Assembly (NCBI GenBank): GCA_949317995.1
Contig: OX439036.1
Coordinates: 86,341,920-86,405,919 of the forward strand
Source: Acholoe squamosa
Taxonomy: Eukaryota > Annelida > Polychaeta > Phyllodocida > Polynoidae
DNA length: 64,000 nt
Direction of reading: 5' to 3'
A model generated the notes under the pieces. It was not told the origin of the DNA. It did not search any database and saw only the letters and a list, made by a program, of their open reading frames with translations. The position numbers and the translations under genes are program-made. Shown one piece after another: positions 23,831 through 63,801 of this stretch. Within the stretch, counting starts at the first letter, position 1. Every line of letters starts with the position of its first letter.

Positions 23831-24059
23831 TCACATGTTTGGAGAAGGAGGAGGTTTTCTTTATTTTTCATCACTTTTCATCACTTCCATTATTTCCTTG
23901 TCCCCTGGATGCTGGTATCTGAATGCTACATGTATCTGTAGAAAGTTATGTAGCCCTACTCCACGGCACCATCATGAATGTAATGAGACAAAGTAGACCT
24001 GTAGCAGAAAAATTGCATGTTCATACTTTTTTAATGTATCAAAATGCAAGAATCTTTAG

Positions 24060-24735
24060 GACTGGGTGTGAGGCAAGTATAGTTAATGTCAGTCAAGTAC
24101 AGTTGATATCAGGCAAGTTTTGATAATGTCAGGCAAGTACAGATAATGTCAGGCAAGTAAGGATGACGAGAGGCAAGTACTGATAATGTGAGGCAAGTAC
24201 AGATAATGTGAGGCAATTGCTGATAATGTGAGGCAAGTACAGATAATGTGAGGCAAGTTATAGTTAATGTGAGACAAGTGAAGATGACATGAGGCAGGTG
24301 AAGATGACATGAGGAAGGTACAGATGACGTGGGGTATGTACAGATGACATGAGGCAGGTACAGATGACGTGGGGTATGTACAGATGATATGAGGTAGGTA
24401 CAGATGACATGAGGCAGGCACAGATGACGAGGGGTATGTACAGATGATGTGAGGCAGGTACAGATGACATGAGGCAGGTACAGATGACATGAGACAGGCA
24501 CAGATGACGTGGGGTATGTACAGATGATGTTAGGCAGGTACAGATGACATGAGGTAGGTACAGATGACATGAGACAGGCACAGATGACGTGGGGTATGTA
24601 CAGATGATGTTAGGCAGGTACAGATGACATGAGGCAGGTACAGATGACGTGGGGTATGTACAGATGATGTGAGCCAGGTGCAGATGACGTGAGGCAGGTG
24701 CAGCAGATGACGTGAACCAGGTGCGGAGGATGCGA
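24060..24735. repeat. 20-bp minisatellite (about 33 units)
   Basis: Units of the type GTACAGATGACATGAGGCAG are tandemly arranged. The left part uses GATAATGT-type variants. Because the period is about 20 bp, it yields long Ser/Val/His/Leu ORFs on the minus strand; these are not genes. It is not a CRISPR array, since units abut without spacers. Confidence 0.95.
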
Positions 24736-25930
24736 AGCTAGTGCAGTTGATGTCAGGCAGGCATATTCCCGCAAAACTGAAAGATAGTGCCAAGATTGAT
24801 AACATAATCCAACCTAATGCAAAATACCTCGTAGTTCGACCATGGCTTCATTGGCTCCATCATGCTCACTATTACATTATCAGCCTGTCCTGGGCATGTG
24901 TACATTGATAACTTTGAGACATAATTGTTTGTCATCCTTTCTTATCACAGTTTTTCTCTATCAGTAAACTCGTAAGTACTAAAATAAAGATATTTGGTCT
25001 GAAATATTTGGGATGTGGTAAACCGTCCCACTCAGCTTATGCCCAGAGTAAAAACAAATAAAAAAAACATGATTGCCCTAGTCAGATTTTTCAGGGGGTG
25101 GTGATGAGAAACCAAGTTTGTTTTTCTTGAGTGATCTTATCATGTGATTCAAATGGCCTTATCATGTGATTCTTGGATTTTTATAAGCTCAACATTAGTA
25201 AATGGGAATCCTGAATAAAATCGCATTCAATCATTATCATTTTCCGAAAAAATTAACAACACTAATACAAAGTAATAGTCATGTTAAAACACTAAACCCC
25301 TGAAAGATAACTTTATGTTTCATACGACACATCCTCTATAAGCTCTATATTCCACCAGTAATACCAGATTTTATATAGAGCCTGTTGAGGTTCCCGAAAA
25401 CAGAGCACTTTCTCACCTCGGCTCTCCAATTTGGCAGAATTCCGGTCACGTGACCTATACAGTAGTAAACTAGTGTAATTCCATGACTAAAGAATAAAAG
25501 CTGGTATTTACATGTGGGATTCTGAAGTTGGAACGTGGAGGAAATGCATGGGGGAGGGGGTGGTACTGGCTGTCTGCTCCGTAAGGGCAATCAAAAAGTC
25601 TAAGGAATAAAATCACCGAGAGTACATGGATCCATCATCAATATTTTGTCTAGTCAGTATAAACTTCAAATTGGGAAGCATGGGAAATACACATACCTAT
25701 TATTATGTATACAGAATTATGGAGTGACAACAATATTTTGAGCAAGTTTAACCATAATGATTTGATCCTTTTTCGTGTTGAATATTTTTTTCAGACTAGA
25801 ATAAGGCCAGCTATTTAGGTTTTTGGATATGGATATAATTATCTGCATGACATTCTACAATACTTGCACCGCATAATTGTATAGGGAGGTGTTACTATTC
25901 ATTAACGTTTGAAGGGTTGTGTATAACTTA
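24736..25930. other. no recognisable gene
   Basis: AT-rich spacer with no feature that I can support. Confidence 0.45.
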
Positions 25931-33252: not shown

Positions 33253-33547
33253 ATACGATAAGTCAGTTAGAACCAGGGCAAATAAGGATGGTATAGAGGC
33301 CTTTGGGATTATTGATAATTCTGACATTCTCAGATACCTCTCTTATGACGGTACTATTCAGGCACAGAAGGCATACGCCACCAAAACTAGAAATGGGACC
33401 AAACAAAAGATCTCAAATAATTCTTGCTATGCTTTTAATAGAGCAGAGGGGTGCTTAAGGGACCCCTGCAAATATAGGCATATCTGCAGTGTATGTAATG
33501 CTTCTGGACATGGTAAAACTGAATGCCAAAAATCCAGGAACGAATAG
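33253..33547 (+). pseudogene. Gag-like C-terminus, copy 1 (truncated)
   Basis: The frame aligns with the last third of the copy 2 Gag, including SYDGT.QAQKA. The end carries a CCCH finger (C-x8-C-x4-C-x3-H, in CYAFNRAEGC...CKYRH) followed by a CCHC knuckle (C-x2-C-x4-H-x4-C). Such fingers are expected to bind the element RNA. The frame ends at a UAG codon at 33545-33547, and the RT frame continues in the same register after it. Most of the N-terminal region is missing. Confidence 0.8.
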
Positions 33548-35440
33548 GAAATTGTAGGTGGTCGATGTCCCATAGCTGGCAATGATTTTTGTTTGGTGCC
33601 CGATCCGGTTATGGTAGGTGTGGTAGATGTCGACTTGCCTCCACAAACTCCAGTACAGGGGGTGGATGATACAGAGAGGGTCAATGGTTATATTCATTCG
33701 ACTGAGTCCGTGTCTAAAGAAAGTGTTTCCCAAGAATTTAATTTTCCAGGAAATGATGTAGATGTTACTTGTAATGATCTAATACAGGTCGAAAATGAAC
33801 CACTATTTACTGTTAGTGTCAAAGACTTGCCTAGCATCAGGGTATATGACAATTGTATAAAAGGTGTATGTATGTGTGTTCATTACATTGGTGGGGAGAG
33901 AGCTCAAATTTTACCATGTAGAGTAGCTTCTTTCCTTCAACAAAAGGGTCTCATTGATATTAGTGGTACGGAGGCTGATTTTCTATGGCATGGTATTGTT
34001 CAAGGGTTTAAAATTGTGGATCCGGATTGTCAGACTACTTATGACTGTAAAAATTATAAATCAATCCGCGAGGGAAGATTCTACAATGAATTTTGTGGTA
34101 TATTATTGGACGAGCTAGAGGCGGGTCTAGTCTCGAAGAGGGATAGTAATCCTCGTTGTATCCATTCTCTAGGTGGTGTAGAAAAATTGAATGGCAAATT
34201 AAGACCCATAACTGACTGTAGTATGCCCGAAAAGATATCTATTAATAACTTTATGGATACCACTAGCTCAACTTTTTCCTATAATAATATTAGCACGGTG
34301 ACTGCTCAATTGGATAGAAATGATTATATGTGTGTAGTTGATTTAAAGTCAGCTTACAGGTCTATAAATGTATATGGCCCCCATACAAATATGCAAGGTT
34401 TCAGTTGGAATTTTGGACAGGGTGAGGAATACTTTGTTAGCAACAGGTTGACCTTTGGTCTTAAGTGCGCTCCATATATATTTAACAGAATTTCTGATTT
34501 CATTGTGGAGGTAGCAAAATTCTACGGCGTAAAGAAAATTGTTAATTATTTAGACGATTTTATACTCATTGCAGACTCTTATGAGGAGTGTCTCAGTCAG
34601 AGAAATTTGTTGATAGAATGTATGGAGTACATGGGCTTTGAAATTTCTAAAGAAAAAGTAACCGAGCCAGCACAAGAGTGCAAATTTCTAGGTATTTTGA
34701 TTAATTCTATTGAACTAGAGTTATCTTTACCTAAGGATAAAGTGGAAAAAATGAGAGGAATTTTATTCAACAATGTAAATAAGAAATATTACCAAAAAGG
34801 ACCTTGAGAGAATCGGTGGTCTCATGTCTTTTTGTTCCCAGGTTGTAAAAGGTGGGAGAACGTTCAGTAGAAGAATTTTTGATTTGTGTGCCTGCACTAG
34901 ACCAAGGGGTTACATTAGGGTGTCAGAATGTACCAAGCAAGACATGCAGTGGTGGTTGGATTTTTGTGATACTTTTAAAAGTTTAATCCTAAACGATGTG
35001 GTTAATACCCCTATGTACTCAGATTCGTCTATTAAGGGCTTTGGAGCCTGGATGGGTAAGGATTTCCTGTAGGGAGACTGGACATCTTTTGATAAATTTA
35101 ATCTTGGTGAAGACCATTTTACTGTTCCCCCAATACTTGACAATCTACGGAACCATCATAGAAATATCAATGTATATGAACTATATCCTGTTATGATGGC
35201 TTTAAAACACTGGATTTCTAGTTACAGAAACAAAAGAATTCATTGTATAACAGATAATATGCAGGTTCTAGCTATGATTAACACTGGCAGATCTAAAAAC
35301 AAACTTTGCATGGAATGGCTAAGAGAAATCTTTTGGCTGTGTTTCATTAACAATGTAGAAATATATGCTACTTATACTAAGTCAGAGGATAATGTCCTGG
35401 CTGACCAGTTGTCATGACTTGCATATAAAGGTATGCCTGG
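33548..35440 (+). pseudogene. reverse transcriptase-RNase H, copy 1 (decayed)
   Basis: The RT part is open to 34807 and carries the catalytic YLDDF box at about 34546-34560 and the preceding GLKCAPYIFNR segment. A frameshift lies at about 34790-34805. The frame resumes with SFCSQVV and the RNase H YSDSS box. An amber codon at 35070-35072 interrupts RNase H just after its first strand. The later NVYELYP and TDNMQ motifs survive. An opal codon at 35415-35417 falls in the last motif (ADQLS). The enzyme would copy the element RNA into DNA; this copy cannot be functional. Confidence 0.88.
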
Positions 35441-36458: not shown

Positions 36459-36641
36459 GGCATGTATGGTGCTGATAGCCCCAAGGTCAGTAACCCACCA
36501 AACTCATGTGTCTCTGTGATAGATCATTTATTATATATATTATATTAATATCCCTTTATTACCGGTACAATCTGGTATCTTGTATTATATTATCATCCGT
36601 ATATTACCGGTATATTATTCCCTGGTAGCGAGATAACTTAT
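36459..36641 (+). repeat. B1 repeat, copy 1
   Basis: One hundred and eighty-three bases from GGCATGTATGGTGCTGATAG to AGATAACTTAT recur almost exactly at 36968-37150. Only a few substitutions separate them. Confidence 0.9.
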
Positions 36642-36845
36642 GGAACTATATACACTCGTGTATATTTATATAATTAGCCGCGGACGGTTAGGGACTACTT
36701 GCAGCTCGTATGGATACCTATGATGTCATAGCATGACGTCATGGTAAATAACTCCTCCAGTATATAAGGGGCTGGTCCAAAGTAACCGTCAATCGGGGAA
36801 GCTCACCTGTTCAGGTAACACCACGCTGGGTGTTTCCTTGATTTT
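36641..36845 (+). repeat. A2 repeat with internal promoter, copy 1
   Basis: It aligns with the A repeats of copies 2 and 3 at GGAACTATATACAC, CTCCAGTATATAAG, TAACCGTCAA and CACCACGCTGGGTG. The octamer TGACGTCA is at 36734-36741. TATATAA starts at 36761, and the initiator-like TCA has its A at 36791, 30 bases downstream. The A1 partner is missing because of the 5' truncation. Confidence 0.85.
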
Positions 36846-36967
36846 TAATTTTTACTATGTTAGTACTATTGTTATCACTATTGTTGTTCCTTATACTATT
36901 GTTATTATATTATGCATTTTACTGACTATGCTTATTGTCAACTAATTATTATAGTTGTTTTGATAAA

Positions 36968-37150
36968 GGCATGTATGGTGCTGATAGCCCCAAGGTCAGT
37001 AACCCACCAAACTCATGTGTCTCTGTGATAGATCATTTATTATATATATTATATTAATATCCCTTTATTACCGGTACAATCTGGAATCTTGTATTATATT
37101 ATCATCCGTATATTACTGGTATATTATTCCCTGGTAGCGAGATAACTTAT
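36968..37150 (+). repeat. B2 repeat, copy 1 (right end of element)
   Basis: Second copy of the B block; the match ends at AACTTAT and TA-rich flank follows. A GATAAA hexamer immediately precedes it, in the place where copy 2 has AATAAA. Confidence 0.9.
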
Positions 37151-37152
37151 AC

Positions 37153-37197
<45 letters not shown>
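37151..37197. repeat. (TA)n microsatellite
   Basis: About 45 bp of TA dinucleotide directly abut the right end of Ngaro-like copy 1. Confidence 0.9.
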
Positions 37198-37319: not shown

Positions 37320-38217
37320 TTAAGAGTCTGTTTCACGGTTCATAATGACAGTTATGAAGTTAGTCTCATGTGAATTGTCCTCTATATCTTCCAGTCGCGG
37401 TCTGTTGTAGAACCTGGCAAATGTATTGGTTCTCGCCCATCCTGCCGAACTGAGTATGTCATTTATTGGCACATTTAGCCTGTCCGCTGCACTTATAGCA
37501 GCGTGTCTTGTGCTATATGCCCCAAAAGTGTTCCTCAATGACTGTGGCCTTTAGGGTCTCCTTAATGTATCTTAATAAGGTGAAGGTGCTGGCTGGGGTG
37601 GAAGGTGTTTTTATGGTGCCAAACACTCTGGGGTGTGCTCTTTTTGTGTCCTCCCTGTCCAGGTAGGCCTTCAGGTGTGAGTAGACACATATTCATGTGT
37701 CTTCATATTTGTCAAACCTGAGGAGTAGTGGGTTCTTTTTAGGGTGGTTGACTTCAGTTTTATGGAGTATTTGATCCTGATGTTATCCTCTGATAGGCAC
37801 TCTGTATCCTCTGACCTGTTTCTAGCATGAAGAGTAGTAGGGTTCTCCTTGTTAGTTTATCCAGATCTAGCTCTTCTATGTCGCCCCACTGTGCCAGTTT
37901 GTGTATTACCAGTGCTGGGTCCCAAATGTATTCATAAGGTTCCTGTGGTGGGTTTAGGGCTTTTGCCCCTTTTACTAGTTTTGCCTTCTATGTAGATGAA
38001 GCGTGACATTAGGGACCTGGTGGTGGCTACTGATGAGTGACCCACCCCACTGTTGGCGATCTCTGTTAGGAAATCTATGCATTGGTGTATGGTGGTGTGG
38101 GTGATGCTGACATTGTTTTTGCTGGTGTGTTTTAGCCACTTCCTTGCTGCTGTTGCATAGCAGGCTATGATAGATTTAGACCATGAAGCCATGAGGAGCT
38201 CCAAGGATGTCCTAGAT
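37320..38217 (-). pseudogene. DIRS-like tyrosine recombinase fragment
   Basis: Read on the minus strand, the order is as follows. A SAM-like N-terminal domain contains YATAARKWLKHTSK and TTRSLMSRFI. Next are WDPALVIHKLAQW and LLLFMLETGQR with the first catalytic Arg. After broken frames come YSTRHAAIS and SSAGWARTNTFARFYNRP with the terminal Tyr. The HxxR position reads Tyr-Ser-Thr-Arg. Frames are interrupted between about 37539 and 37931. The style (TGQR, TFARFYNRP) differs from the plus-strand Ngaro-like recombinases, so it belongs to another element. Its N-terminal edge meets the Penelope-like element. Confidence 0.8.
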
Positions 38218-38455
38218 AAAGAAGGAGCGGTGTGTGTGCACCCTGTCACGTCACTACCACAATGTGTCAGTTTGACTTGAAAGGATCCACTGTGTAAACT
38301 ATGGCAAACAATGCATTGGCCAATGAGAGGGCAGTGCATTGTCATGTGACCAAAAACAAATTCTCAGAAGGAGGCTTCCCACTAGATATAGAGGGGGGAG
38401 TGTATCATTGATAAATAATTCATCAAGCTGATTTTTGGTTAGTGGGAGAATTTGT
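38218..38455 (-). repeat. 3' terminal repeat of the Penelope-like element
   Basis: It matches 43455-43682 from AAAGAAGGAGCGGTGTGTGT to GAGAATTTGT. A few indels separate the two, including an extra TGTGTAAAC-like stretch in this copy. Confidence 0.9.
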
Positions 38456-38885
38456 GGGTGGATGGCACAGATATGTATATCCCTGTAGTGGGGGTTGGAG
38501 TGTGGGTTCAAACTAAAAGTCTCATCAGGCGTGATCTGTTAGATTTATTATTTCATTTCTAGTTGGAAAATAATGAATCTAGGGAATTATTTTAAATATT
38601 TTATGTTAAATCATTTTTGAAAAAAAGTCAAAATCTATTTTTTGTAGATTTTTTAAAACACAAAATATTTGGTCATATCTGTGGAATAATTTTGAGCTTG
38701 TCATGTTTACAAGCCGCCCTTTAGAATGATTTTGAAAGTATTCTCTAATTATTTAGGATTTATTAGAGTGTAAAAAAAACCCAGGATTTCATATTCTCTG
38801 GGGGTGGTATGACTCCTGGGGTTATTATCCTGGGTGGCAAGCCCTGTTTAGAGAGTAGGGCTTGATACTTTCTGCAGCTGTGGTC

Positions 38886-41215
38886 TTAGTGTGGTAAGAC
38901 AATGTCCGAATTACAGTAGTGTTGTTTAATTTCGCTATTGGGTGATGGATTCTGTCTGCCTATGGCATTGTTGAGGAGCAGTTTTTTATGACAAAATTGG
39001 TCTCTCAATTTGTTAATATTCCCTCCCTGGAAGTGGCAGGTTTTTTTATGAAACTTAAAATTGATATCATGGGTCCCTCTTCCCAGCATTCTTCTGGGGT
39101 TCTAGTGTTGTCCAGACAAGACCGGAGGTGTCTGCCTACTGTAGTGTCCTGTCCCACATTTTTTATAGCAAACATGTGGCCTTTGAACCTCTCCAGTAGC
39201 ATTTTCTGTTTGTCCCATGTATTGTATGCCACAGAATTTGCAAGTGATGACATAGATGAGGTTAGCAGTGCGACAGTTGACTAATGTCCTGTAGTACTTA
39301 CCATCGCGCAGAGAAAATATATATCTGCTCTTATTGAGTTTAGGGCAATAGTTGCAGCTGTTGGGTCTCTTGCAAGGATTTCTGATGTAGTGTGGTATTT
39401 GGTGTTTCTCAGGAGTGCTTGTGGAGGCCCTCACCAGCTCATCTTCTAAAGATTTATTTTTGCGTTTTCCAAATACCAGCTTTGCACCATGGAACACTCT
39501 TGTCCTTTTGGATTTTAGCATAAGGTCCCAATGTGAGTGTACTACCTCTTCAATGGGTGGGTTAGCTGGGTTATGAGTAATAATGCAATAGAAGGCTTTC
39601 TCTTGTTCAGAGGGTTTTTCCTTGATTTTTACTAAATCAGTGCGGTCTTGTTCTTCTGCCCTGACAAGCGATTTTAGAACAAGTTTCTTGGGATACCCTC
39701 TTCTTAAGTGGGTGCATAGCATGAGTGCATTTTGCCTGAACTCCAGAGTGTTAGAGCCTATTCTCCTACCCGGAGGAATTGGGAGTAGGGAATTCCTCTA
39801 AGTATGTGACGTGGATGTTCAGATGAATATAATAAGTAGTTGTGGCTGTCTGTTGGTTTGCAGTAAAGTGTGGTCTCCAAGTTGCCAAGTGAGTCATGTA
39901 ATACTTTGATGTCCAGAAAATTAATTTCTGTTCTGGAATGTTCTAGCATGAATTTGATGGTATTGTGGCAGTTATTTAGGTGACTGACAAAAGCTAGAAG
40001 GGATTCTTCTCCCTGGGTCCAAATCAGGCAGATGTCATCAGTGAATCTTTTCCAGATCAGTGGTTGGGTTTTGTAAGAATAAACAAATTTTGATTTGAAG
40101 CTTCCCATAAAAATGTTGGCATAGGATGGGGCCACCTTTGTTCCCATCGCTCTGCCAGTGATTTGTAGGAAGCGTTTGTTGTCGAATTCAAAATTGTTGC
40201 AGGTTAGTACTAGGTATAATAATTCACATAAAGAGTATGTGGTTGGGTTTTGGAAGGGATGCCTATACTTATTCATTATCTCCCTTGCTGCTTGTATACC
40301 TTCATCTGTAGGGATGATGGTATACAGACTCATCACATCCAATGTAGCAAGGATGGAATTGGATGGTATTTTCAGATCCTTAATTTGGTTCAGAAAATCA
40401 CTGCTGTCTCTCAAATAAGATGGTAGAGTAGTGACTATAGGTTGTAGGAAGTGATCCACTAATTGGGAGATTCTTTCTGTGGGGCAGTCATTGGCTGAAA
40501 CAATGGGTCTGCCTGGGGGTGGTAATGGATTCTTATGAATTTTTGGGAGTAGATACAATTTAACTGTTCTAGGTTTGGGGACTACTAGATAATCTGCTGC
40601 TTCTTAGCTTACTTCACCCTGTCTGTGCATTTCAGAGATTTTGTTTTTCACCAAGGTTTGATGGAAACTGGTAAGGTTTGCTTCCTGCAACCTGTAGAAA
40701 TCTCTATCATTTAATTGGTGGAGCCCTTCTTTAATGTAATCTTCACGATTCTGTACTACTACTGCAGAACCTTTATTGGCTTTCTTAATGATAACATCTT
40801 TATTGGTAGATAGGGAGAGTTCAACCTCTTTTTCTGATGGGGTAATGTTTGATTGATGATAGGGGGTTATGATAGTGTTTTCTAATTGTGTCTGATTTAG
40901 TCAGCACATGTGTTCCACAATGGCTGGGCCTGGGGGTTTCCAATGAGATGGATTTTTGAATTTATTATTGTGGAAAGGGGCCTCTATCTGAGTAGGGGGA
41001 GTATGAGGTGTCTGAGAGTCTTCCCTCTTATTGTCTTTGAATTTTGCTAGTGCAACTTCCCCCTAGATGCTAGGGTGAAATTTAGCTAGGTCTTCAAAGA
41101 GAATGCCAGGATCAGGGGGTCATGGGGTGCAGACAAAAGTCAAACCCTTTTGTAAGAGGCTATAGTCTTCATCACTAAGTTGATGGTCAGGTAAATTAAC
41201 AACACTTGAGTGATT
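38886..41215 (-). pseudogene. Penelope-type reverse transcriptase with GIY-YIG endonuclease (decayed)
   Basis: Minus-strand order: VVNLPDHQLSDED and LLQKGLTFVCTP (typical start of the RT polyprotein), then a broken stretch, then NKGSAVVVQNREDYIKEGL. Next are YLLPKIHKNPLPPPGRPIVS, TLDVMSLYTIIP, GRAMGTKVAPSYANIFMG and the catalytic RFTDDICLIW. Further on come INFLDIKV and YCKPTDSHNYL. The endonuclease part has LIYVITCKFCGIQYMGQT, then, in another frame, LLERFKGH and VGRHLRSC. Stops or frameshifts occur upstream of 40559, near 39770 and near 39190. RT would prime at nicks made by the endonuclease; this copy is non-functional. Confidence 0.88.
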
Positions 41216-43364
41216 GTCAGAAGGGATGTTATTTTTACTTTTGTCACTGAAAGCGTTACAATTTATGTTCCTTTGTTCTTGTAGGATAGGTAAATATTCT
41301 ACACAATAGATTGACATGCAGGCTAGAAAATCTACATCGTGGAACAGGTCTAAATTGAAATGTTTATGATAAGATGGTGGGCCCAGCATGTCTGAGTGGG
41401 CTGTTCCTGACAACAGAAGTTTGTCATTTACTGGTGTCACTGTAGGAACTGTCATAGCTGGTCCAACTCGTCCCTGCTTAAGTTGCTGGGGTTGGGAGCT
41501 CTGTTGTTGCCCTGATTTGATGTTGTTTGTCGGTTGCGAGATGTGTTTGTTGGCTGTGGTGCCTGTCACTGCTGAGTATTGCGGCGGCGGTTGTTTGGTG
41601 AATTTGGAGAGCTGTCCTGCCTCCGACGTTGTCTCCGGTTGGTGGTCGGTCTTGCCCAGGCCGTGGCTAAAACCGCCGACTGGGGGAGATTAGCATTAAT
41701 GCTATGGTTCATGAGAGGTTGGACATAGTTAGGTTGGATACTCGGTAGTTGTGAGGGGATGAGGTTGGGTGGTTGTGTGCTTGTTAGAGGATCATAGTTA
41801 GATAGGTCCATCTGGACCACTCCTGCATAGGTGGGAGTGGATGTTGTGGCGGCCACTGAGGTGGGCTGAGGGGGTCTGCTGAGGTAGGGTAGATTGGAAT
41901 CCTGGCCTCAAGTTTGCCGGGATTCCCACCCATAGGGCATCCTCGGGGGCTTTCTTTAGGTTGTTACCTTCCTCACATAGCTTGGCATTAAGTGTTGCGC
42001 TTTCGCGCTCTACCAATGGGCAGGATTCCAATCTACCCTACCTATGTCCAATCTTCCTATGTCGTCACATGTGGTATCTCTGAGTGTTAGGTTTGTTTTA
42101 CCTTCCAGATTTAAGTTGCTGAAAGTTATGGGTGTTGCATTCTGTCCCTTCTGGTCTGGCACAAAAATGGAATTGGAGAATGTGGAGCCCACTGTGTTGG
42201 GAGGGTCAGCTGTTGTAGAAGGTGTCGGTGAAGTGATGGTTACCATGGGTTGAGTTGGGGGGCTGATGCCTGTCTGGGTTTCCATCGGTTCCGTGGTCTG
42301 AAAGACAACAGAACGGGGTTTGGTGAGATCAAACTCTTCATTCATGCTGAAAGATATTCTTAGTGGTATTTCCGTGGGTGAATGGAAGTTAGAAATGACC
42401 ACAGGTAATTGTTTGGCAGCCTGAGGGACTGTGTTTGTGGTTGGCAGAAGGGGTTCCCGAATGGTGGATGCCAAAATAGAGGTAGTGGTGGTGGCTGTGA
42501 GGAAGAGGGCAGGGGATTCAATGTGACATCATAGCACTGGGTGCTGCTTCTTGGAGACGCCCCCTGGGTGTCAGGGATCTCATGCCCAGAGCCGGGATGT
42601 TTGTGTCTGGATTATGAAGGTTTAATTTACTAATAGGATCTGTGCCTATTGACCTGAATACTGGAGGGCTCGCAGGGGTAGGTGGTTTAGTACTATTAGA
42701 GCTAGAGTGTAGTCTCACCATCTCCTCAGGTACATCATGCCACCAGATCGGATCGGCTTCACGACTGACATTAGTGCGGTTGTAGACCATCTGATTTGGA
42801 TCATTCCAGAACAGCATTTCGAGCTGGCGGGCTCCAGAGGTAGTGGCGGTCTGGGAAGGGTTGGAAAATCGTGTTATTGTAAGGTTAGTGACCCTGGGGG
42901 TTGAGGGATTGTGCATAATTTCGTTTTCAGTGAGTGAAATCGATTAAATGAACGACGATGACGCAACTATCAGGGCAACGTTATTGTCGTCATGGGAGCG
43001 CGTCATCGTTGCTAGGTTACGCATTTCATGAGGCTTGGCTGGGGACAAAGGGACGTGTCTAGTTTTAGTTTTTCTTTTATGAAGATCGCTAGGTGAAGGG
43101 CCGTTCAGAGTGAAGTATTTATGTAAAGAAATTTTGGCGTAAATCGCTCACCTGATTAGTTGGTGGTGTTTCAGTTGGTTGTGTGTCCACAATAGAGATT
43201 CCAGCCATATGAGAGAGTTGGGTTAATCCAACCGTGTCCGAGTTCGACTCCAGAGAGGAGGCAGAGTGTTGTTGGCTGAATTCTGCAGTTGAGGGTTCTT
43301 CATCATTTAGGGATGGATTGGTATTAATATCACCTTCTGATGCAGTCTGTCTATCAGTAGACAT
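41120..43364 (-). pseudogene. N-terminal / ORF1-like region of the Penelope-like element
   Basis: A chain of overlapping minus-strand ORFs (43364 to 41120) encodes low-complexity Pro/Ser/Thr/Asn-rich sequence. A basic patch, NRRQRRRQDSS, lies near 41600. The first ORF starts with an ATG at 43364, just inside the 5' terminal repeat. The last runs into the RT polyprotein start. I recognise no domain. It may be a Gag-like or linker protein broken by frameshifts, or an unusually long N-terminal extension. Confidence 0.5.
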
Positions 43365-43454
43365 GATTGCAGGTAGGGATTGTTTTGTTTTGTTTTAGAA
43401 AGATTAACACTGTAGCGAAAATGTCTAGATGGGTTTGTTTGTCTAAAACTCAAC

Positions 43455-43682
43455 AAAGAAGGAGCGGTGTGTGTGCACCTTGTCATTTGCTAACACAAAG
43501 TTTCAGTTTGACTTGAAAGGATCCACTATGGCAACCAATTCATTGGCCAATGAGAGGGCAGTGCATTGTCATGTGACCAAAGACAAATTCTCAGAAGGAG
43601 GCTTCCCACTAGATATAGGGGGGAGAGTGTATCATTGATAAATAACTCATCAAGCTGATTGTTGGTGAGTGGGAGAATTTGT
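43455..43682 (-). repeat. 5' terminal repeat of the Penelope-like element
   Basis: Direct partner of 38218-38455. Together they define the boundaries of the insertion. The sequence outside 43682 resumes Gag-like coding sequence of the host DIRS-like element. Confidence 0.9.
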
Positions 43683-56731: not shown

Positions 56732-56934
56732 TATGGGACTATATACTCCCAGGTATATATATATAATTAATAAGTGATACATTGGTACTACTTTGTCTGG
56801 GGCGCATGATTTTCTATGACGTCACACATAACATTTCCTCCAGTATATAAGCTCCAGCAGTTGAACTAACCGTCAATTGGCTTTATATACTCGGACAGCA
56901 TACACCACGCTGGGTGGTGCTCGAATTTTTAAAC
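56732..56934 (+). repeat. A1 repeat, copy 2
   Basis: It runs from TATGGGACTATATACTCCC to GAATTTTTAAAC. It matches A2 at 61002-61204 base for base except a few changes, such as GACGTCA versus GACATCA. Confidence 0.93.
56817..56880 (+). promoter_or_regulatory. internal promoter of copy 2: CRE, TATA, initiator
   Basis: TGACGTCA lies at 56817-56824, TATATAA at 56844-56850, and CGTCAATTGG has its initiator-like A at 56875, 31 bases after the TATA start. The same order and TATA-to-initiator spacing of 30-31 bases appears in copy 1 (36761/36791) and copy 3 (61581/61612), whose surrounding bases differ. A Pol II start at the TCA is inferred. A transcript from here would run through all ORFs to the second A and B repeats. 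Confidence 0.75.
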
Positions 56935-56980: not shown

Positions 56981-58009
56981 ATGGGTAGGAAAGGAGCAGC
57001 TGGTAGCGGACCAAGGTCTAAAGCCAAGAAGTCTCCTAGAAAATCTAGGAATATAGCCAATTCGAGGAATTCGAGCGGTGTGAGATCCAATGGGGGTGGT
57101 CAAGGACCATCTTCCCCAACTGCTACAGGGGTTGCATTGGACTCGGCCATTGACCAGACGACGATTGGGGAGTTGGAGGATCGTACTGCTCGTATGGAAC
57201 AGCAGCTAGTTGATATCAAGTTCCTATTGGAGGGGCAGGCGTTTAGTCATACAGCTACTACAGCAGCGGGTGGCGAGACGGGGACAGCTCGAACACGTGG
57301 CGATGTTGGTAAACATTCGATTGACAACGCAGTAACCAAGCAACGGGGGCGTGGCCGGCAGCGCTCGCCTGACTACCGGGGTCTCCACGGCGACAAGAGG
57401 ACACGTCGCCATTTTGGATCTTCGAGCAGGTCGTCTTCATACCGTAGTAATTCAACTAGTTCCTCGGGTTCTATTGGGTCTATCTCCTCCAAGAACGGTC
57501 GTCGACATGCACAAAAGACTAGAGGTATGTTTGATCAGAGAAATTTCTTGAAGAAGGGGGAGAAATTAGATAGTATCGAGAAACTGCTGCTTGTCAACGT
57601 AAGAATGATGAAACAGTTGATAGAGGAGGGAGAAGATGTTTTCGATGTAGTTAAACATATAGAGGTGTTAGTGGAGAAATCCTCTACTAAAATATACACT
57701 CTCAAGGCTCTCGTAGCATACAACTCATCTGTTAAGAACAGGGCAAATTGTGAGGGTGTTGAGTCTTTCAGGGACGTTAAAAGTGAGGATATTCTTAGGC
57801 ATTTATCCTATGACGGAACGGTGCAGGCTCAGAAGGCGGGTGTGGTAAAAACAAAGTCGTTCAAGTCTAAACAATCCAACCGAACCTGTTATGCTGTCAA
57901 CAGGGCCGAGGGTTGCAAGGAAGACCCGTGTAGGTATCGTCATGCTTGTGATGTTTGTGGCATGTCAAACCATGGCAAGGACAAATGCCTGAAAAACAAG
58001 AAAGATTAG
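56981..58009 (+). CDS. Gag-like protein with CCCH and CCHC zinc fingers
   Basis: The frame is open for 342 codons from an ATG about 106 bases after the inferred transcription start. The N-terminus is basic (Lys/Arg/Ser/Gly). A short predicted coiled coil (IGELEDRTARMEQQLVDIKF) lies at about residues 65-90. Residues about 115-185 are Arg/Ser-rich, resembling SR domains. A helical part from about 190 to 290 may be the capsid region. The C-terminus has a CCCH finger (C303, C312, C317, H321) and a CCHC knuckle (C323, C326, H331, C336). The role inferred is RNA binding and particle assembly. It ends in TAG at 58007-58009 with the RT frame open in the same register beyond. Confidence 0.85.
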   Translation: MGRKGAAGSGPRSKAKKSPRKSRNIANSRNSSGVRSNGGGQGPSSPTATGVALDSAIDQTTIGELEDRTARMEQQLVDIKFLLEGQAFSHTATTAAGGETGTARTRGDVGKHSIDNAVTKQRGRGRQRSPDYRGLHGDKRTRRHFGSSSRSSSYRSNSTSSSGSIGSISSKNGRRHAQKTRGMFDQRNFLKKGEKLDSIEKLLLVNVRMMKQLIEEGEDVFDVVKHIEVLVEKSSTKIYTLKALVAYNSSVKNRANCEGVESFRDVKSEDILRHLSYDGTVQAQKAGVVKTKSFKSKQSNRTCYAVNRAEGCKEDPCRYRHACDVCGMSNHGKDKCLKNKKD

Positions 58010-58036
58010 GATTTTGTTCTTAGGCAGGGTCCTATG
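58007..58036 (+). promoter_or_regulatory. candidate UAG readthrough site, copy 2
   Basis: The Gag stop is followed by eight sense codons and then ATG at 58034, all in one frame. Context is AAA GAT TAG GAT. The same single in-frame TAG followed by G is present at 33545 (copy 1) and 61834 (copy 3). Residues between the stop and the first ATG are partly conserved between copies 2 and 3 (the QGP..L.SD pattern), which suggests they are translated. Internal initiation at 58034 is the alternative. Confidence 0.55.
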
Positions 58037-59623
58037 TTAGAATCTGATATTTTGGTGCCTGATTTTAATGTAGTACATGTGGTAGACCTTCCTGAGCCCC
58101 CCGTTCCAATCATTTCGGGTGAAAATAATGAAAATGATGTTAATAAGTCTTGTAATAATAACAAGAATCTTTTTATGTCGTATAGTGGCCCAGTACAGGG
58201 CGAGTTTGAACCACTGTTTACTGTGGAGTGTGTTAATAGACCCAGCATCAAGGTCTATGATAGTTGTGTCAATGGTATTTGTGAGTGTGAGCATTTCATT
58301 TATGGTAGGAAAGCTCAAATTTTACCATGCAGACTGGCTAATTTTTTGAGGCAGTCAGATATTATTAATATAAACCAGGTAGAATCTGATTTTCTATGGT
58401 GTGGTTTTACTGAGGGGTTCAAAATAGTTGACCCGGGTTGTGATACAGCATATGACTGTAAAAATTATAAGTCTATTTTAGAAGGTAGATTTTATAGCGA
58501 AATGTGTGATATTATTAATGACGAGTTAGCCCAGGGCCTTGTCACAAAGACAGATTATAAACCTAGGTGTATTCTCTCCTTAGGTGGTGTAGAAAAGTCT
58601 AATGGTAAATTGAGGCCTATCACTGATTGTAGCATGCCTGCAGGGATATCTATTAATAATTTTATGAACACTACATCTAAAAGTTTCTCTTATAACTCTA
58701 TTAACACTGTTACATGTCAGTTGGATAGGCATGATTATATGTGTGTGGTAGATTTGAAATCCGCCTACAGGAGTATCAATGTGTATGGTCCGCATGTGGG
58801 GCTTCAGGGTTTCAGATGGGATTTTGGTAGTGGAGAGGAATTTTTTGAGAGCAATCGATTGACTTTTGGATTGAAGTGTGCCCCATATATATTCAATAGA
58901 ATATCTGATTTTTTTACTGCAGTAGCAAAATTTTATGGTGTGGATAGGGTAGTTAATTACCTAGATGATTTCATTGTCATTGCTCATACTGAAGAGGAGT
59001 GTTTACGTAAGAGGAACATCCTCATTGAGTGTATGGAATATATGGGTTTTGTTGTATCCAAGGAAAAAGTAACTGAGCCTAGTCAAGTTTGTGTATTTCT
59101 AGGTATAACCATTGATTCCACCTGTATGGAGCTGTCTCTACCACAAAAGAAATTAGATAAAATGAGTCTAGCATTGGATGAATGTTTGGGTAAAAAATTT
59201 GTATCTAAGAAAACTCTCCAGAAGATTGGTGGTTTAATGTCCTTCTGTTCCCAAGTAGTATGTGGCGGGAGGACCTTTAGCAGGAGATTGTTCGATCTTT
59301 GTGCAAAGGCTAGAAATAGATGTGTTATTAGGCTAAATGAGGAAACCCAAAATGACCTGTTGTGGTGGAGGGATTTTTGTAGAATTTTCAATTGCAGAAG
59401 TATCATTTTGAATGATAATGCATGTACCCCTATGTATTCAGATTCATCTATACAGGGCTTTGGTGCCTGGTTTGGTAAAGATTATTTGTATGGGACTTGG
59501 AACGATACTAATCCTATGTTAGACTGTGTGGATCATTTTACTCATGCACCCAAACTGGATAACCTAAAGATTCACCACAGGAATATCAATGTATACGAGC
59601 TTTACCCCGGATGGTGGGCCTGA
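58034..59623 (+). CDS. reverse transcriptase and first part of RNase H, copy 2
   Basis: The 529-codon frame carries a DIRS-order RT. Segments are FLWCGFTEGFKIVDPGC, GKLRPITDCSMP, DYMCVVDLKSAYRSINVYG, NRLTFGLKCAPYIFNRISD and catalytic YLDDF at about 58957-58971. Next come FLGITIDS and SFCSQVV (connection), and RNase H starts with MYSDSSIQGFGAW (catalytic Asp) and NVYELYP (catalytic Glu). A single missing base at about 59606 shifts the frame, and it ends TGA at 59623. The start at 58034 is conventional; the protein may instead be made as a Gag fusion by readthrough of 58007. As read, the enzyme is truncated within RNase H. Confidence 0.9.
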   Translation: MLESDILVPDFNVVHVVDLPEPPVPIISGENNENDVNKSCNNNKNLFMSYSGPVQGEFEPLFTVECVNRPSIKVYDSCVNGICECEHFIYGRKAQILPCRLANFLRQSDIININQVESDFLWCGFTEGFKIVDPGCDTAYDCKNYKSILEGRFYSEMCDIINDELAQGLVTKTDYKPRCILSLGGVEKSNGKLRPITDCSMPAGISINNFMNTTSKSFSYNSINTVTCQLDRHDYMCVVDLKSAYRSINVYGPHVGLQGFRWDFGSGEEFFESNRLTFGLKCAPYIFNRISDFFTAVAKFYGVDRVVNYLDDFIVIAHTEEECLRKRNILIECMEYMGFVVSKEKVTEPSQVCVFLGITIDSTCMELSLPQKKLDKMSLALDECLGKKFVSKKTLQKIGGLMSFCSQVVCGGRTFSRRLFDLCAKARNRCVIRLNEETQNDLLWWRDFCRIFNCRSIILNDNACTPMYSDSSIQGFGAWFGKDYLYGTWNDTNPMLDCVDHFTHAPKLDNLKIHHRNINVYELYPGWWA

Positions 59624-59952
59624 AGCGCTGGTTGAAAGATTTTAGTAATACGAGGGTTCATTGTATCACAGACAACATGCAGGTCTTGGCTATGTTAAAC
59701 ACCGGTAGATCCAAGAATAAGTTGTGCATGGCTTGGTTGCGAGAGATTTTTTGGCTATGTTTTATCCATAATATTGATATATATTCTACATATATCAGGT
59801 CGGAGGACAATATTTTAGCTGATCATTTGTCTAGGCTAAATTACAAAGGTGTTCCGAATAAATGCAGGAATGTTTTGGTGGAATATAACAGGTACTATTG
59901 TGGTTACAGGCCTCAGGGAGCTGGAGAGGAGAAGGAGAAAACTCTTATATAG
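59611..59952 (+). pseudogene. RNase H C-terminal part, copy 2 (after frameshift)
   Basis: This frame continues the RNase H domain with the catalytic TDNMQ and ADHLSR aspartates, and ends shortly after. Copy 3 keeps the same sequence in one uninterrupted frame, which shows that the break near 59606 is a lesion of copy 2 and not a family trait. Confidence 0.85.
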
Positions 59953-60217
59953 GGGTGTAGCTGAGTCTACTCATAAAACTCGCAGACAGCAATTTAGTAG
60001 GTATAAAAAATTTTGTAAAAAATTTAACTTTACTCCTCTACCTTGTTCTCCTTCTCAGGCTTCCTTATACTGTGTTTACCTGTCTGATTTTATGAAACCT
60101 ATTTCAGTAAGAAATTATTTGTCTGCTGTGTGGTATTATCAGAAGCTAAAAGGTTATATGGATTATAGTAGTAGCTTTGTGGTTAAAAAAACCCTGGATG
60201 GGATAGAGATTGTGTAA
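59869..60217 (+). CDS. tyrosine recombinase N-terminal part, copy 2
   Basis: This lies in the +1 frame relative to RNase H and overlaps its end by about 80 bases. It begins at or after an ATG near 59869. It shows an Arg-rich start (LRELERRRRKLLYRG) and a SAM-like helical domain (RRQQFSRYKKFCKKF, PCSPSQASLYCVYLSDF, NYLSAVWYYQKLKG). The frame ends at 60217 owing to a one-base change near 60200. The equivalent of copy 1 passes through this point in frame, so it is a lesion. The N-terminal domain would clamp the recombination site DNA. Confidence 0.8.
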
Positions 60218-60812
60218 GGGGTCTGTCAGTACAACTTACCCTCTGAGTCCTAGGGATATGGTTCAAATTAAAACAAAACTGAATCTTAATGTTATGGAAG
60301 ACGTGGTATTTTGGTCTGCTATATTGCTATGTTACAGTGGTGTTTTTAGGATTGGACATGTAGTCCAGTCGCCCCATAATTTCTTAAAGAGGAACGTTAA
60401 AGTTTCTTCTGACTGTATAGAGGTCAGAGTTTTTTCTTCTAAAACTGACCAGTGTGGCAAGTCTCCATATGTTGTGTATCTAAAAAGAGATGATAGTTCT
60501 GATTTGTGCCCGGCTAGATATATTAACATGTGTGTTAGAGCCTGTAAACATAACAGGTTTCTATTTTCTTTTCAATCTAGACCGTTGCAATATAACTATG
60601 TGAATACGAGGTTAAAATCTACTGCTTTTCAATGTGGTTTGTCTGGTAAAGTTTCAAGTCATTCTCTTAGGCATGGTGGTGCGACTCTGTTAAAAAATGC
60701 AGGTTTGAGTGTTCAGGATATTATGAGACGAGCCAACTGGAAATCTAATGCTGTTTTTAAATATCTACATGAATCAAAGGATAGCTTGCTAGCTTTAGAT
60801 GTAATGATTTAA
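60210..60812 (+). pseudogene. tyrosine recombinase catalytic domain, copy 2 (after frameshift)
   Basis: The catalytic set is visible in this 200-codon frame: Arg47 in GVFRIGHV, Lys78 in SSKTDQ, His151 and Arg154 in HSLRHGG, Trp177 in ANWKSNAV and the nucleophile Tyr185 in FKYLHE. It ends TAA at 60812, about 45 bases before B1. Family chemistry: the tyrosine forms a 3'-phosphotyrosyl link during strand exchange. All key residues are intact, so only the upstream frameshift disables it. Confidence 0.88.
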
Positions 60813-60855: not shown

Positions 60856-61001
60856 GGCATGTATAGGATTGGTATTGACAAAATCAATTCTCACCAAACC
60901 CAATGTCTTCTTAATTATTCCATATCTACTGTTATAATGTATCTATTAATGTAACGATATAGTTATTATTATTACCGGTACTTCGGATCAACACATTAAC
61001 T
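60856..61001 (+). repeat. B1 repeat, copy 2
   Basis: One hundred and forty-six bases from GGCATGTATAGGATTGG to CACATTAACT match B2 (61319-61464) with about one change. They sit directly after the YR 3' end. Confidence 0.93.
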
Positions 61002-61204
61002 TATGGGACTATATACTCCCAGGTATATATATATAATTAATGAGTGATACGTTGGTACTACTTTGTCTGGGGCGCATGATTTTCTATGACATCACACATA
61101 ACATTTCCTCCAGTATATAAGCTCCAGCAGTTGAACTAACCGTCAATTGGCTTCATATACTCGGACAGCATACACCACGCTGGGTGGTGCTGGAATTTTT
61201 AAAC
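61002..61204 (+). repeat. A2 repeat, copy 2
   Basis: It follows B1 without a gap, as in other split-direct-repeat elements. It repeats the promoter elements of A1, but its CRE is mutated to TGACATCA (61087-61094). Confidence 0.93.
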
Positions 61205-61312
61205 CTTACTGTGATATTGTGATTACCTGTATATTACTATTATATTGTATTATATTGTTATTTCTATATATTGCTATGTTATTGTATTATATTGTAAATT
61301 ATTGTCTTATTT

Positions 61313-61318
61313 AATAAA
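61313..61318 (+). terminator. probable polyadenylation signal AATAAA, copy 2
   Basis: AATAAA lies immediately before B2, after an AT-rich stretch that follows A2. Cleavage would place the 3' end of the transcript within B2, leaving B1-A2 and a little of B2 on the RNA. Copy 1 has GATAAA at the matching place. Confidence 0.55.
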
Positions 61319-61464
61319 GGCATGTATAGGATTGGTATTGACAAAATCAATTCTCACCAAACCCAATGTCTTCTTAATTATTCCATATCTACTGTTATAA
61401 TGTATCTATTAATATAACGATATAGTTATTATTATTACCGGTACTTCGGATCAACACATTAACT
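61319..61464 (+). repeat. B2 repeat, copy 2 (right end of element)
   Basis: The right boundary is set by the end of the B1 match at AACT/TATGGG. The next base starts the A1 repeat of the following element. Confidence 0.9.
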
Positions 61465-61657
61465 TATGGGACTATATACACCCGTGTATATATATATAAT
61501 TAATATGTGCAGTGGTTGGATCTACTTTTCCTCCAGGGCGCGCATTGGTATGTGTGACGTCACCGTAAACATCCAGCACCTATATAAACTGCGGGATCCA
61601 AATTAACCGTCAGTTGGCGAGTTTCCTCAGGTCGGCATACACCACGCTGGGTGGTGC
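61465..61657 (+). repeat. A1 repeat with promoter, copy 3
   Basis: Shared blocks with the copy 2 A repeat are TATGGGACTATATAC, TATATATATAATTAAT, TGACGTCA (61555-61562), TATATAAA (61581), AACCGTCAGTTGGC (initiator A at 61612) and CACCACGCTGGGTGGTGC. The rest is diverged. It is cut off at GGTGC and fused to Gag codons, so the A1 tail and Gag start are deleted. Confidence 0.85.
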
Positions 61658-61836
61658 AGAAGGCGGGTGGGTCTAAGCCTAAGTCCTTCAAATCAAAACA
61701 ATCCAACCGAACCTGTTATGCTTTCAACAGGGCCGAGGGTTGCAGGGAGGACCCGTGCAGGTATCGTCATATTTGTGAGATTTGTAGTATGTCAAACCAT
61801 GGTAAAGACAAGTGTCAAAAGAACAAAAAAGACTAG
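61655..61836 (+). pseudogene. Gag C-terminal fragment, copy 3 (internal deletion)
   Basis: The frame starts abruptly at QKAGGSKPKSF, equivalent to about residue 283 of the copy 2 Gag, and has no ATG. It retains both zinc-binding modules: CYAFNRAEGC...CRYRH and CEICSMSNHGKDKC. It ends at TAG (61834-61836), after which the RT frame continues in the same register. The deletion joins GGTGC of the A1 repeat to CAGAAGGCGGG of Gag. Confidence 0.85.
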
Positions 61837-61863
61837 GAAAATTCACTTGGGCAAGGTCCTACA

Positions 61864-63801
61864 TTGGGTTCTGATAGTTTGATGCCTGATTCTAGTGTAG
61901 TATGTATGGTAGATCTTCCTGAGCCTCCCGTTTCTATCATTCCGGGTGATAATGTTAATAATGATAGTGTAAATATTTATAATTCTTGTGATTTGTCAAA
62001 GAATTTATTTATTTCCCATAGCTGCCCAGTACAGGGCGAGGTTGAACCACTTTTTACGGTGGAATGTTTAAATAGACCCAGCATCAGGGTCTATGACAGT
62101 TGTGTAAATGGGGTATGTATGTGTGAGCATTTCATTTATGGTAGAAAGGCTCAGATACTCCCGTGTCGGCTAGCTAGTTTTCTCAGGCAGTCAGACCTTA
62201 TTAATATCAATCAGATTGAGTCTGATTTTCTATGGTGTGGTTTTACCGAGGGTTTCAAAATTATTGACCCAGGGTGTGATACAACATATGATTGTAAAAA
62301 TTATAAGTCTATTTTGGAAGGTAGATTTTATGACGAGATGTGTAGCATTATTGTGGAGGAGTTGAGCCAAGGCCTGGTTACTAGAACTGAATGTAAACCC
62401 AAATGTATTCACTCCCTAGAGGGTGTGGAAAAATCTAATGGTAAGCTTCGTCCCATCACTGATTGCAGTATGCCTGATAAAGTCTCTATAAATAATTATA
62501 TGAGTACTACCTCTAGTCCATTTTCATACAATTCTATTAACACGGTTACAGCTCAGTTAGATAGAGACGACTTCATGAGTGTGGTGGATTTAAAATCAGC
62601 TTACCGGTCTATAGGAGTTTACGGTCCACACATCAAGTATCAGGGTTTTCGCTGGGATTTTGGTAATGGTGCGGAATTTTATGAAAGTAACCGCCTAACC
62701 TTTGGTTTAAAATGTGCTCCATACATTTTTAACAGAATATCAGATTTTATTGTCTCAGTTGCAAAATTCTATGGTGTTGAAAGGATTGTAAATTATTTAG
62801 ATGACTTCATAATTATTGCTAATTCTGAGGAAGAATGTAGACGTCAAAGAAATATTCTCATCGAGTGTATGGAATTTATGGGGTTCAAAATATCCACAGA
62901 AAAAGTAACTGAGCCTAGTAAAAAATGTGTTTTTCTTGGCATAAATATTGACTCTACTACTATGGAATTATCACTCCCCCAGAGTAAGGTGGAAAAAATG
63001 AAACTTGCCATAGATGATTGCATAGGTAGGGCGTATGTATCTAAAAAATCCTTGCAGAAGATTGGTGGTTTAATGTCGTTTTGCTCCCAAGTAGTTAGGG
63101 GAGGCAGAACTTTCAGTCGTCGTGTCTTCGACTTGTGTGCTAAGGCCAGGAACAGGGGTGTGGTTAAACTTAATGAAGAGATACACAAAGACTTGAAATG
63201 GTGGAAGGATTTTTGCAAGGTTTTTAATTGTAAAAATATCATTCTGAATGATAACGAATGTACTCCTATGTATTCCGATTCCTCTATACAGGGCTTTGGA
63301 GCCTGGTTTGATAAGGATTATTTGTATGGTACTTGGGACGATTCTAACCCTATGTTGGACTGTGTGGGTCATTTTGTTCATGCCCCTAAACTTGATAACC
63401 TGAAAATTCACCACAGGAATATTAATGTGTACGAGCTCTACCCGGTAATGGTAGGTCTTAAGCGCTGGGCGAAGAAGTTTTCCAACACGAGGGTTCATTG
63501 TATTACAGACAACATGCAGGTCTTGGCCATGTTGAACACTGGTAGATCCAGGAACAAATTGTGTATGTCCTGGTTGAGAGAAATTTTTTGGCTATGTTTT
63601 ATACATAATATTGAAATATATTCAACATATATTAAATCTGAGGAAAATGTTTTAGCAGACCATTTGTCTAGACTAAATTACAAAGGTGTTCCTCTGAAAT
63701 GTGAAAATGTTTTAACTAGTTATAACATGTGTTGCTATGCTTCCAGATCTGAGGGAGCTAGAGCGGAGAAGGAGAAGGTTTTTGTACAGGGGCGTGGCTG
63801 A
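61864..63801 (+). CDS. reverse transcriptase-RNase H, copy 3 (intact frame)
   Basis: The frame is open from the Gag amber codon to TGA at 63801; numbering here is from 61864. The first in-frame ATG is at 61882. RT segments: FLWCGFTEGFKIIDPGC, GKLRPITDCSMP, VVDLKSAYRS, GLKCAPYIFNR and YLDDF with Asp313/Asp314 (62800-62805). RNase H has the full catalytic set: Asp472 (YSDSS), Glu524 (VYELYP), Asp549 (TDNMQ) and Asp599 (ADHLSR). It makes element DNA from RNA and removes the RNA strand. No stop or frameshift is seen, so this enzyme could be active if expressed. Loss of Gag makes the element as a whole dependent on other copies. Confidence 0.93.
   Translation: MGSDSLMPDSSVVCMVDLPEPPVSIIPGDNVNNDSVNIYNSCDLSKNLFISHSCPVQGEVEPLFTVECLNRPSIRVYDSCVNGVCMCEHFIYGRKAQILPCRLASFLRQSDLININQIESDFLWCGFTEGFKIIDPGCDTTYDCKNYKSILEGRFYDEMCSIIVEELSQGLVTRTECKPKCIHSLEGVEKSNGKLRPITDCSMPDKVSINNYMSTTSSPFSYNSINTVTAQLDRDDFMSVVDLKSAYRSIGVYGPHIKYQGFRWDFGNGAEFYESNRLTFGLKCAPYIFNRISDFIVSVAKFYGVERIVNYLDDFIIIANSEEECRRQRNILIECMEFMGFKISTEKVTEPSKKCVFLGINIDSTTMELSLPQSKVEKMKLAIDDCIGRAYVSKKSLQKIGGLMSFCSQVVRGGRTFSRRVFDLCAKARNRGVVKLNEEIHKDLKWWKDFCKVFNCKNIILNDNECTPMYSDSSIQGFGAWFDKDYLYGTWDDSNPMLDCVGHFVHAPKLDNLKIHHRNINVYELYPVMVGLKRWAKKFSNTRVHCITDNMQVLAMLNTGRSRNKLCMSWLREIFWLCFIHNIEIYSTYIKSEENVLADHLSRLNYKGVPLKCENVLTSYNMCCYASRSEGARAEKEKVFVQGRG

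Follow-up and report, generated by a model that had tools for sequence, protein, structure and literature searches.

The stretch of DNA analysed here, 64,000 nucleotides of contig OX439036.1 from the polynoid annelid Acholoe squamosa (the window), carries three copies of a tyrosine-recombinase (YR) retrotransposon in which a single UAG codon separates Gag from reverse transcriptase (RT) in one continuous frame. Very probably this UAG is a programmed readthrough stop, stimulated by an extended stem-loop, that gives Gag together with a minor Gag–RT fusion. The stop, its frame, its place six codons past a CCHC zinc knuckle, its retention in four families and the compensatory changes in the stem are observed; we infer that the stem forms in the RNA and stimulates readthrough. 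Most ribosomes would end at the UAG and release Gag. A minority, aided by the predicted stem-loop, would decode UAG as an amino acid, presumably glutamine, the one usually inserted at UAG, and would continue to a Gag–RT–RNase H fusion. This minor product would carry RT into the Gag particle. As these elements are said to be without an aspartic protease (PMC3783388; here and below, cited papers are drawn on in excerpt), only a host protease would cleave the fusion, which would otherwise remain whole. A first-pass annotation of the window had raised UAG readthrough for these copies, and the relatives support it, since they keep the stop and the frame, with a covarying stem just downstream.

Translation confirms the single in-frame TAG that had been reported at 33545 (copy 1), 58007 (copy 2) and 61834 (copy 3). 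Each joins an upstream Gag C-terminus to a downstream RT frame, and there are no further in-frame stops from the Gag zinc knuckle to RT. Gag and RT had been described for all copies; the common frame stands, but the full Gag (342 amino acids) is found only in copy 2. Copy 1 was said to retain the arrangement, as it does, with TAG in frame and the 5′ end of Gag cut to leave just ~95 C-terminal codons. Copy 3 has lost most of Gag (just ~60 C-terminal codons left). By translation, copies 1 and 2 are also broken elsewhere. The motif C-x2-C-x4-H-x4-C, read by eye, we take to be a CCHC knuckle; in the inspected copies of all four families it ends six codons 5′ of the stop, with the same spacing. The junction features, all on the plus strand, are as follows.

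56981–58006: Gag open reading frame (ORF) of copy 2, 342 amino acids
57947–57988: copy 2 CCHC zinc knuckle, six codons before the stop
58007–58009: copy 2 UAG at the Gag/RT boundary (from translation)
58010–58018: copy 2 spacer of 9 nt between UAG and outer stem (from folds)
58019–58031: copy 2 outer stem, 5′ arm, partner of 58085–58096 (from covariation)
58032–58044: copy 2 inner stem, 5′ arm, partner of 58061–58073 (from covariation)
58061–58073: copy 2 inner stem, 3′ arm (from covariation)
58074–58084: copy 2 one-sided bulge of 11 nt (columns 71–81 of the four-family alignment A4)
58085–58096: copy 2 outer stem, 3′ arm; the same stretch codes for V-D-L-P-E
58010–59622: copy 2 RT/RNase H frame (RVT_1, E 1.3e-16), lost near 59605 by comparison with copy 3
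61655–61833: copy 3 remaining Gag C-terminus (from repeat comparison and translation)
61834–61836: copy 3 UAG (from translation)
61846–61923: copy 3 extended stem-loop (from folds and covariation)
61837–63801: copy 3 RT/RNase H frame, 654 codons (RVT_1, E 1.8e-19)
33257–33544: copy 1 remaining Gag C-terminus (from translation)
33545–33547: copy 1 UAG (from translation)
33556–33640: copy 1 extended stem-loop, different in primary sequence, with the core helix in the same register
33548–34807: copy 1 RT frame (RVT_1, E 6e-20)

The window belongs to a 1.48-Gb genome rich in relatives. A search with the RT frame of copy 3 scored 68 of its 20,656 first-look candidates, and the junction of each of these was taken. 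The stop is TAG, in exactly the same codon, in 50 of the first 50; the remaining 18 have TAG (15), TAA (2) or a site lost by a short deletion (1). The RT frame of copy 1 gave 100 scored rows including the window copy, and the 20 junctions taken carry TAG in 18, TGG in one and an out-of-frame site in one. Two database proteins, ~44–54% identical to the genome copies, gave 66 and 71 scored rows, from which 20 junctions were taken. These added the families F3 (eight copies) and F4 (one copy), all with TAG; the other 11 belong to F1 or F2 and include one TAA, one lost site, one out-of-frame site and one later stop. The full set thus holds 110 junctions, three from the window and 107 from the genome (L051, L079, L096, L097 and L108 were classed by hand). 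The site is in frame in 106: TAG in 102 (one of them with a later stop), TAA in three and TGG in one. It has been lost by deletion in two and displaced from the frame in two; TGA occurs at the site in none of the 110. The base 3′ of the stop is G in 80 of 104 TAG or TAA junctions, a count that leaves out L096, which carries a further stop. The claim that TAG is always followed by G therefore holds for the three window copies and fails for the genome, where T takes this place in 24.

The UAG is found in all four diverged families, with F4 known from a single copy. Between families the RT core has a synonymous divergence (dS) of 0.8 to saturated, with a ratio of nonsynonymous to synonymous change (dN/dS) of ≤0.12, so the stop has been retained while synonymous sites changed. 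A stands at its third position in 2 of 68 copies. The third base is mixed at nine two-fold purine codons close by, with a median minor share of 0.29. Judged by such sequence comparison, the retention of TAG is greater than chance. Among 52 copies (49 loci and the three window copies), 29 have open frames of ≥310 codons for Gag and ≥640 codons for RT, with one TAG between them. DNA of relatives was not found in the viral and prokaryote contigs searched. The C-terminus of Gag differs more than RT between the TGT-group and the GAA-group (synonymous difference, pS, ~0.9 in Gag and ~0.38 in RT), which suggests that Gag may have been exchanged by recombination near the junction.

An extended stem-loop of ~80 nt is predicted 3′ of the UAG, the outer stem typically beginning 8–9 nt past it. 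The three window junctions each fold into one long hairpin, which starts at nt 3–13 counted from the U of UAG and closes at nt 90–100, with the outer stem from nt 12–13; copy 2 alone has four extra pairs inside its 9-nt spacer. Of 69 distinct 100-nt junctions, 64 contain the core helix in their best fold (F2 38/41, F1 20/20, F3 6/7, F4 0/1), and 63 do so when 50 nt upstream are added. The helix was called when at least four of the six pairs of nt 20–25 form with the stretch that begins at the Asp codon. The outer stem starts 9 nt after UAG in F2 and F4 and 8 or 9 nt after it in F3; in F1 two pairs form at 5 nt and the long helix follows at 8 nt. The gap between UAG and the first paired base of the best fold is 9 nt in 23 of 38 F2 junctions, 5 nt in 17 of 20 F1 junctions and 8 or 9 nt in 6 of 6 F3 junctions. 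The one-sided bulge has a constant length of 11 nt across the four families as aligned. It may make a tertiary or pseudoknot contact, a kind of pairing that fold tools do not display. Structure had been sought within about 10 nt of the stop, and the predicted stimulator there is a covarying extended stem-loop in place of a pseudoknot recognisably like that of gammaretroviruses, a kind of fold beyond what the tools used can predict. Synonymous resampling (1000 resamples of codons 4 to ~31 in 13 copies) gave folds as stable in ≤2.6% of resamples for eight copies, and for the 11 copies whose RT sequence is long enough, the junction ranks 1 to 8 of 175 within its own RT frame. Rfam returned no match. 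A competing hairpin in copy 2, with the stop in its loop (50 nt on each side, z −2.79), was rejected: it is missing in copies 1 and 3, and the core helix is retained when 50 nt upstream are folded with 100 nt from UAG.

In the 33 distinct junctions of F2 and copy 1, 94.9% of cells are paired in the hairpin. Both sides have changed in at least one sequence for 13 of the 24 pairs, compared with 2.8 in shuffled alignments and 1–4 when the pairing partner was slid; two of these pairs are supported by 8 and 15 sequences. A 14-pair core (columns 20–25 with 82–87 and 26–33 with 63–70, the 11-nt bulge lying between) was scored across the four families in 30 hand-picked sequences. It is 94.8% paired, with a covariation of 0.647 compared with 0.251 and 104 double-change cells compared with 33.1 in shuffles. 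These covariation values are to be read with two cautions, in that relatedness alone, with no structure present, can lift sequences above shuffles and that the structures were derived from the same sequences. Exchange of the arms and a model search are partly independent tests of the pairing. The arm pairs comprise 35 distinct pairs from 103 of the 110 junctions (L051, L079, L082, L096, L097, L099 and L108 were dropped); the row of L095, for which the motif picked the wrong 3′ arm, is kept in the count. Positions 21–25 are paired in 34–35 of the 35, and position 20 in 27. Arms bind their own partners with −13 to −21 kcal/mol overall (means −15.2 in F1, −17.3 in F2, −20.6 in F3 and −13.3 in F4), and with −4.6 to −11.6 kcal/mol when exchanged between families. 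A covariance model built from 29 F2 junctions was searched against 70,719 bases, which included 19 of the 34 loci fetched. It matched all 19 of these loci, which belong to other families, and window copy 1 (E 3e-9 to 0.018); within this search space nothing else matched at E up to 1 except its own two window members. A sequence-only F2 model matched 9 of the 19 and missed copy 1.

Several results weigh against programmed readthrough. The stop is directly followed by T at 24 of 104 sites, and one of the nine two-fold sites is as uniform as the stop (minor share 0.015). A single 966-amino-acid frame joins Gag to RT with no stop in the database protein P0101 (50% identical), perhaps as a family trait, perhaps through loss of the stop in one copy. 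P0101 is the only protein above 830 amino acids in a list of 120 out of 263, and some elements may thus lack the stop. For F2 and copy 1, only one sequence, in nearly every case copy 1, shows the double change in 11 of the 13 pairs, and in the four-family core the tally of pairs altered on both sides is unremarkable (10 against 8.3; 47 of 500 shuffles). The best fold has no core helix in 5 of 69 junctions, the F4 copy among them; that copy pairs the same arms with a shifted bulge. Extra short pairs lie nearer to the UAG in the remaining F2 junctions, and F1 mostly starts at 5 nt. Taken over the 100 nt that begin with UAG, the folding energies have modest z-scores (−1.05 in copy 2, 0.27 in copy 3, −2.29 in copy 1), and in 5 of the 13 resampled copies 7–46% of synonymous resamples fold at least as well. 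The gag–stop–pol junction of the Candida element Tca2 failed to direct readthrough in yeast (PMC2194720). Amino-acid constraint just 3′ of the stop appears to be weak or absent.

This last point concerns the codons between the stop and the first AUG, for which purifying selection had been anticipated and is slight or absent. As previously described, 8 codons in copy 2 and 15 in copy 3 are open before the first ATG, and the two copies share QGP..L.SD after the stop; copy 1 has 21 open codons and a weaker match, GRCPIAGNDFCLVPD. Before the AUG, dN/dS is 0.64 between two subfamilies (0.10 in RT), 0.73 and 1.25 for copy 2 compared with the subfamilies and 1.62 for copy 1 compared with the rest; rows comparing copies 1 or 2 with others past codon 15, which are out of register and of unequal length, were left unused. 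Weak constraint could arise where the letters of the linker serve RNA pairing, and an unconstrained linker could give it equally. At the nucleotide level the only internal gaps of the four-family alignment A4 span 3 and 6 columns. The Val-Asp that marks the 3′ arm lies 24 (F3), 25 (F2) or 26 (F1 and F4) codons after the stop, the whole-codon spacing being partly by construction as Val-Asp was sought in frame only.

The same weak or absent constraint upstream of the AUG would fit a different explanation, in which the UAG simply terminates Gag and ribosomes start RT at a downstream AUG, by reinitiation or by internal initiation. Codon 16 is an in-frame AUG in 48 copies of the first set of 52, and in 45 of the 52 the first in-frame AUG is preceded by none that is out of frame. 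However, the place of the first in-frame AUG is not fixed, which argues against reinitiation. It is codon 16 in 63 of 73 F2 junctions, 15 in seven and 9, 24 or 56 in single copies, 17 or 22 in F1 and 9 or 15 in F3, and the F4 copy has no in-frame AUG within 60 codons of the stop. Nor would reinitiation call for a kept frame or for a stem that holds its register to the UAG across the four families, and we regard it as quite improbable. An internal promoter or splicing might instead yield an RNA that starts RT without the stop. Promoter activity was found in the junction DNA of Tca2 (PMC2194720), but a promoter or splicing leaves the conserved UAG and stem unexplained. By eye, the junctions of copies 1–3 have no splice-like motif in common, and only 2 of 110 junctions (L051 and L108) are deleted across the stop; as these deletions differ, no recurrent spliced copy is seen. 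This explanation is, in our judgement, highly improbable. Very little weight, much the same, is given to a stem that is real but serves packaging, priming or replication, its nearness to the UAG being incidental. Covariation shows paired RNA and says nothing on function, but the distance of the 5′ arm to the UAG is constant in four families (nt 20–25 in register), the spacing is near that of known signals (PMC3542737) and the UAG itself is kept. A stop that is decay or a copying relic from one ancestor has next to no probability: window copies 1 and 2 are broken elsewhere, but 29 of 52 copies have Gag and RT both open around one TAG, which speaks against decay, and synonymous sites are at or close to saturation in most comparisons between families.

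Programmed readthrough in these elements is best compared with viral signals. In gammaretroviruses (murine leukemia virus type, type III) the protease follows Gag; here Pfam gave no protease match in the ORFs given, and T comes next in 24 of 104. The likeness to them lies in the UAG, the same-frame RT, the G that usually comes next and an RNA structure after an 8-nt spacer (PMC3542737). Their stimulator is a compact pseudoknot (PMC3542737), whereas an extended stem-loop with an 11-nt bulge is predicted here. Type III readthrough uses UAG (PMC3542737); the elements would work in a similar way, but because T follows the stop at the sites counted above they are not filed as a type III member. Nearest in layout, likened by description, is the arrangement of Epsilonretrovirus (type III), where RT is made by UAG-R readthrough with an extended stem-loop (PMC3542737, Table 5); that is a retrovirus, and some copies here have UAG-U. 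Type II signals (alphavirus, tobravirus, coltivirus) likewise have an extended stem-loop that often begins around 8 nt 3′ of the stop, but use mostly UGA-CGG or UGA-CUA (PMC3542737) in place of UAG. This resemblance of the UAG and a stem ~8–9 nt downstream to viral signals supports the readthrough reading. Tca2 of Candida is a retrotransposon with one in-frame gag/pol stop and a proposed structure (PMC2194720), but its stop is UGA and it is a long terminal repeat (LTR) element.

Ngaro-type elements are described with separate or overlapping ORFs and, in the excerpts drawn on, with no readthrough signal (PMC9210276, PMC3266345). The literature searched, in which the founding Ngaro papers were not included, gave no report of a readthrough signal in tyrosine-recombinase retrotransposons, and what was found of it leaves the production of RT relative to Gag in these elements unexplained. 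On balance we lean towards the wider view that UAG readthrough by way of a new, covarying and bulged stem-loop would be the standing route to RT, as a Gag fusion, for a whole clade of YR retrotransposons, outside the known retroviruses and in elements described as having neither protease nor DDE integrase. If so, retrovirus-style Gag-Pol readthrough would extend to another order of retroelements, where the Gag–RT fusion would need to function with no known protease. The many variant stems would form a natural set for studying the leakiness of stop codons. The signal is a short, transferable RNA with strong covariation and can be tested with reporters.

The remaining features of the three copies, again on the plus strand, bear on their class.

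56732–56934: copy 2 split direct repeat A1, 98% identical to 61002–61204
59849–60812: copy 2 tyrosine recombinase, two overlapping pieces, frame broken near 60210
60856–61046: copy 2 split direct repeat B1, 97% identical to 61319–61509
61002–61204: copy 2 split direct repeat A2, 98% identical to A1
61319–61509: copy 2 split direct repeat B2; the repeat run reaches into the start of copy 3
36459–37181: copy 1 repeats B1 (36459–36672) and B2 (36968–37181), 93% identical

Copy 2 has the repeat layout A1-B1A2-B2, with the internal repeats B1A2 downstream of the recombinase. Pfam matched RVT_1 in all three copies and the tyrosine recombinase in copy 2 (PF00589, E 2.5e-09 on 60210–60809). It gave no family above the cut-off for copy 2 Gag, no RNase H match at E 0.1, this region being placed by position, and, as the one library used, no methyltransferase match in the ORFs given. 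Ngaro-type elements are defined by split direct repeats with internal repeats downstream of the YR (PMC4157794); PAT elements can share the split repeats, and their Gag too carries a zinc finger (PMC4157794). We call the present elements Ngaro-type YR retrotransposons on account of the repeat layout of copy 2 and the lack of a methyltransferase match; it is this Pfam result that would set them apart from PAT and DIRS. Relative to RT, the recombinase is encoded in the +1 frame and so needs another route of production. Its ATG is found 62 nt before the RT stop in most copies and 50 nt before it where RT has 650 codons; L034 and L039 lack this ATG (L002–L050 compared; window 63740–63801).

Copies 2 and 3 stand head to tail at 61002–61836, the 3′ repeat of copy 2 abutting the 5′ repeat of copy 3. 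On the minus strand, a fragment at 37935–38345 resembles a phage-integrase SAM-like N-terminal domain (E 0.0013, below the cut-off) and is possibly the relic of another YR element. Also on the minus strand, the element at 38298–43682 has an RT ORF (39761–40558, RVT_1, E 4.7e-07) between 158-nt direct repeats that are 95% alike. It resembles a Penelope-like element with a GIY-YIG-like frame alongside, for which Pfam gave no match. Tandem arrays occur at 3570–4076 (unit of ~21 bases) and 24015–24755 (unit of ~20 bases) of the window.
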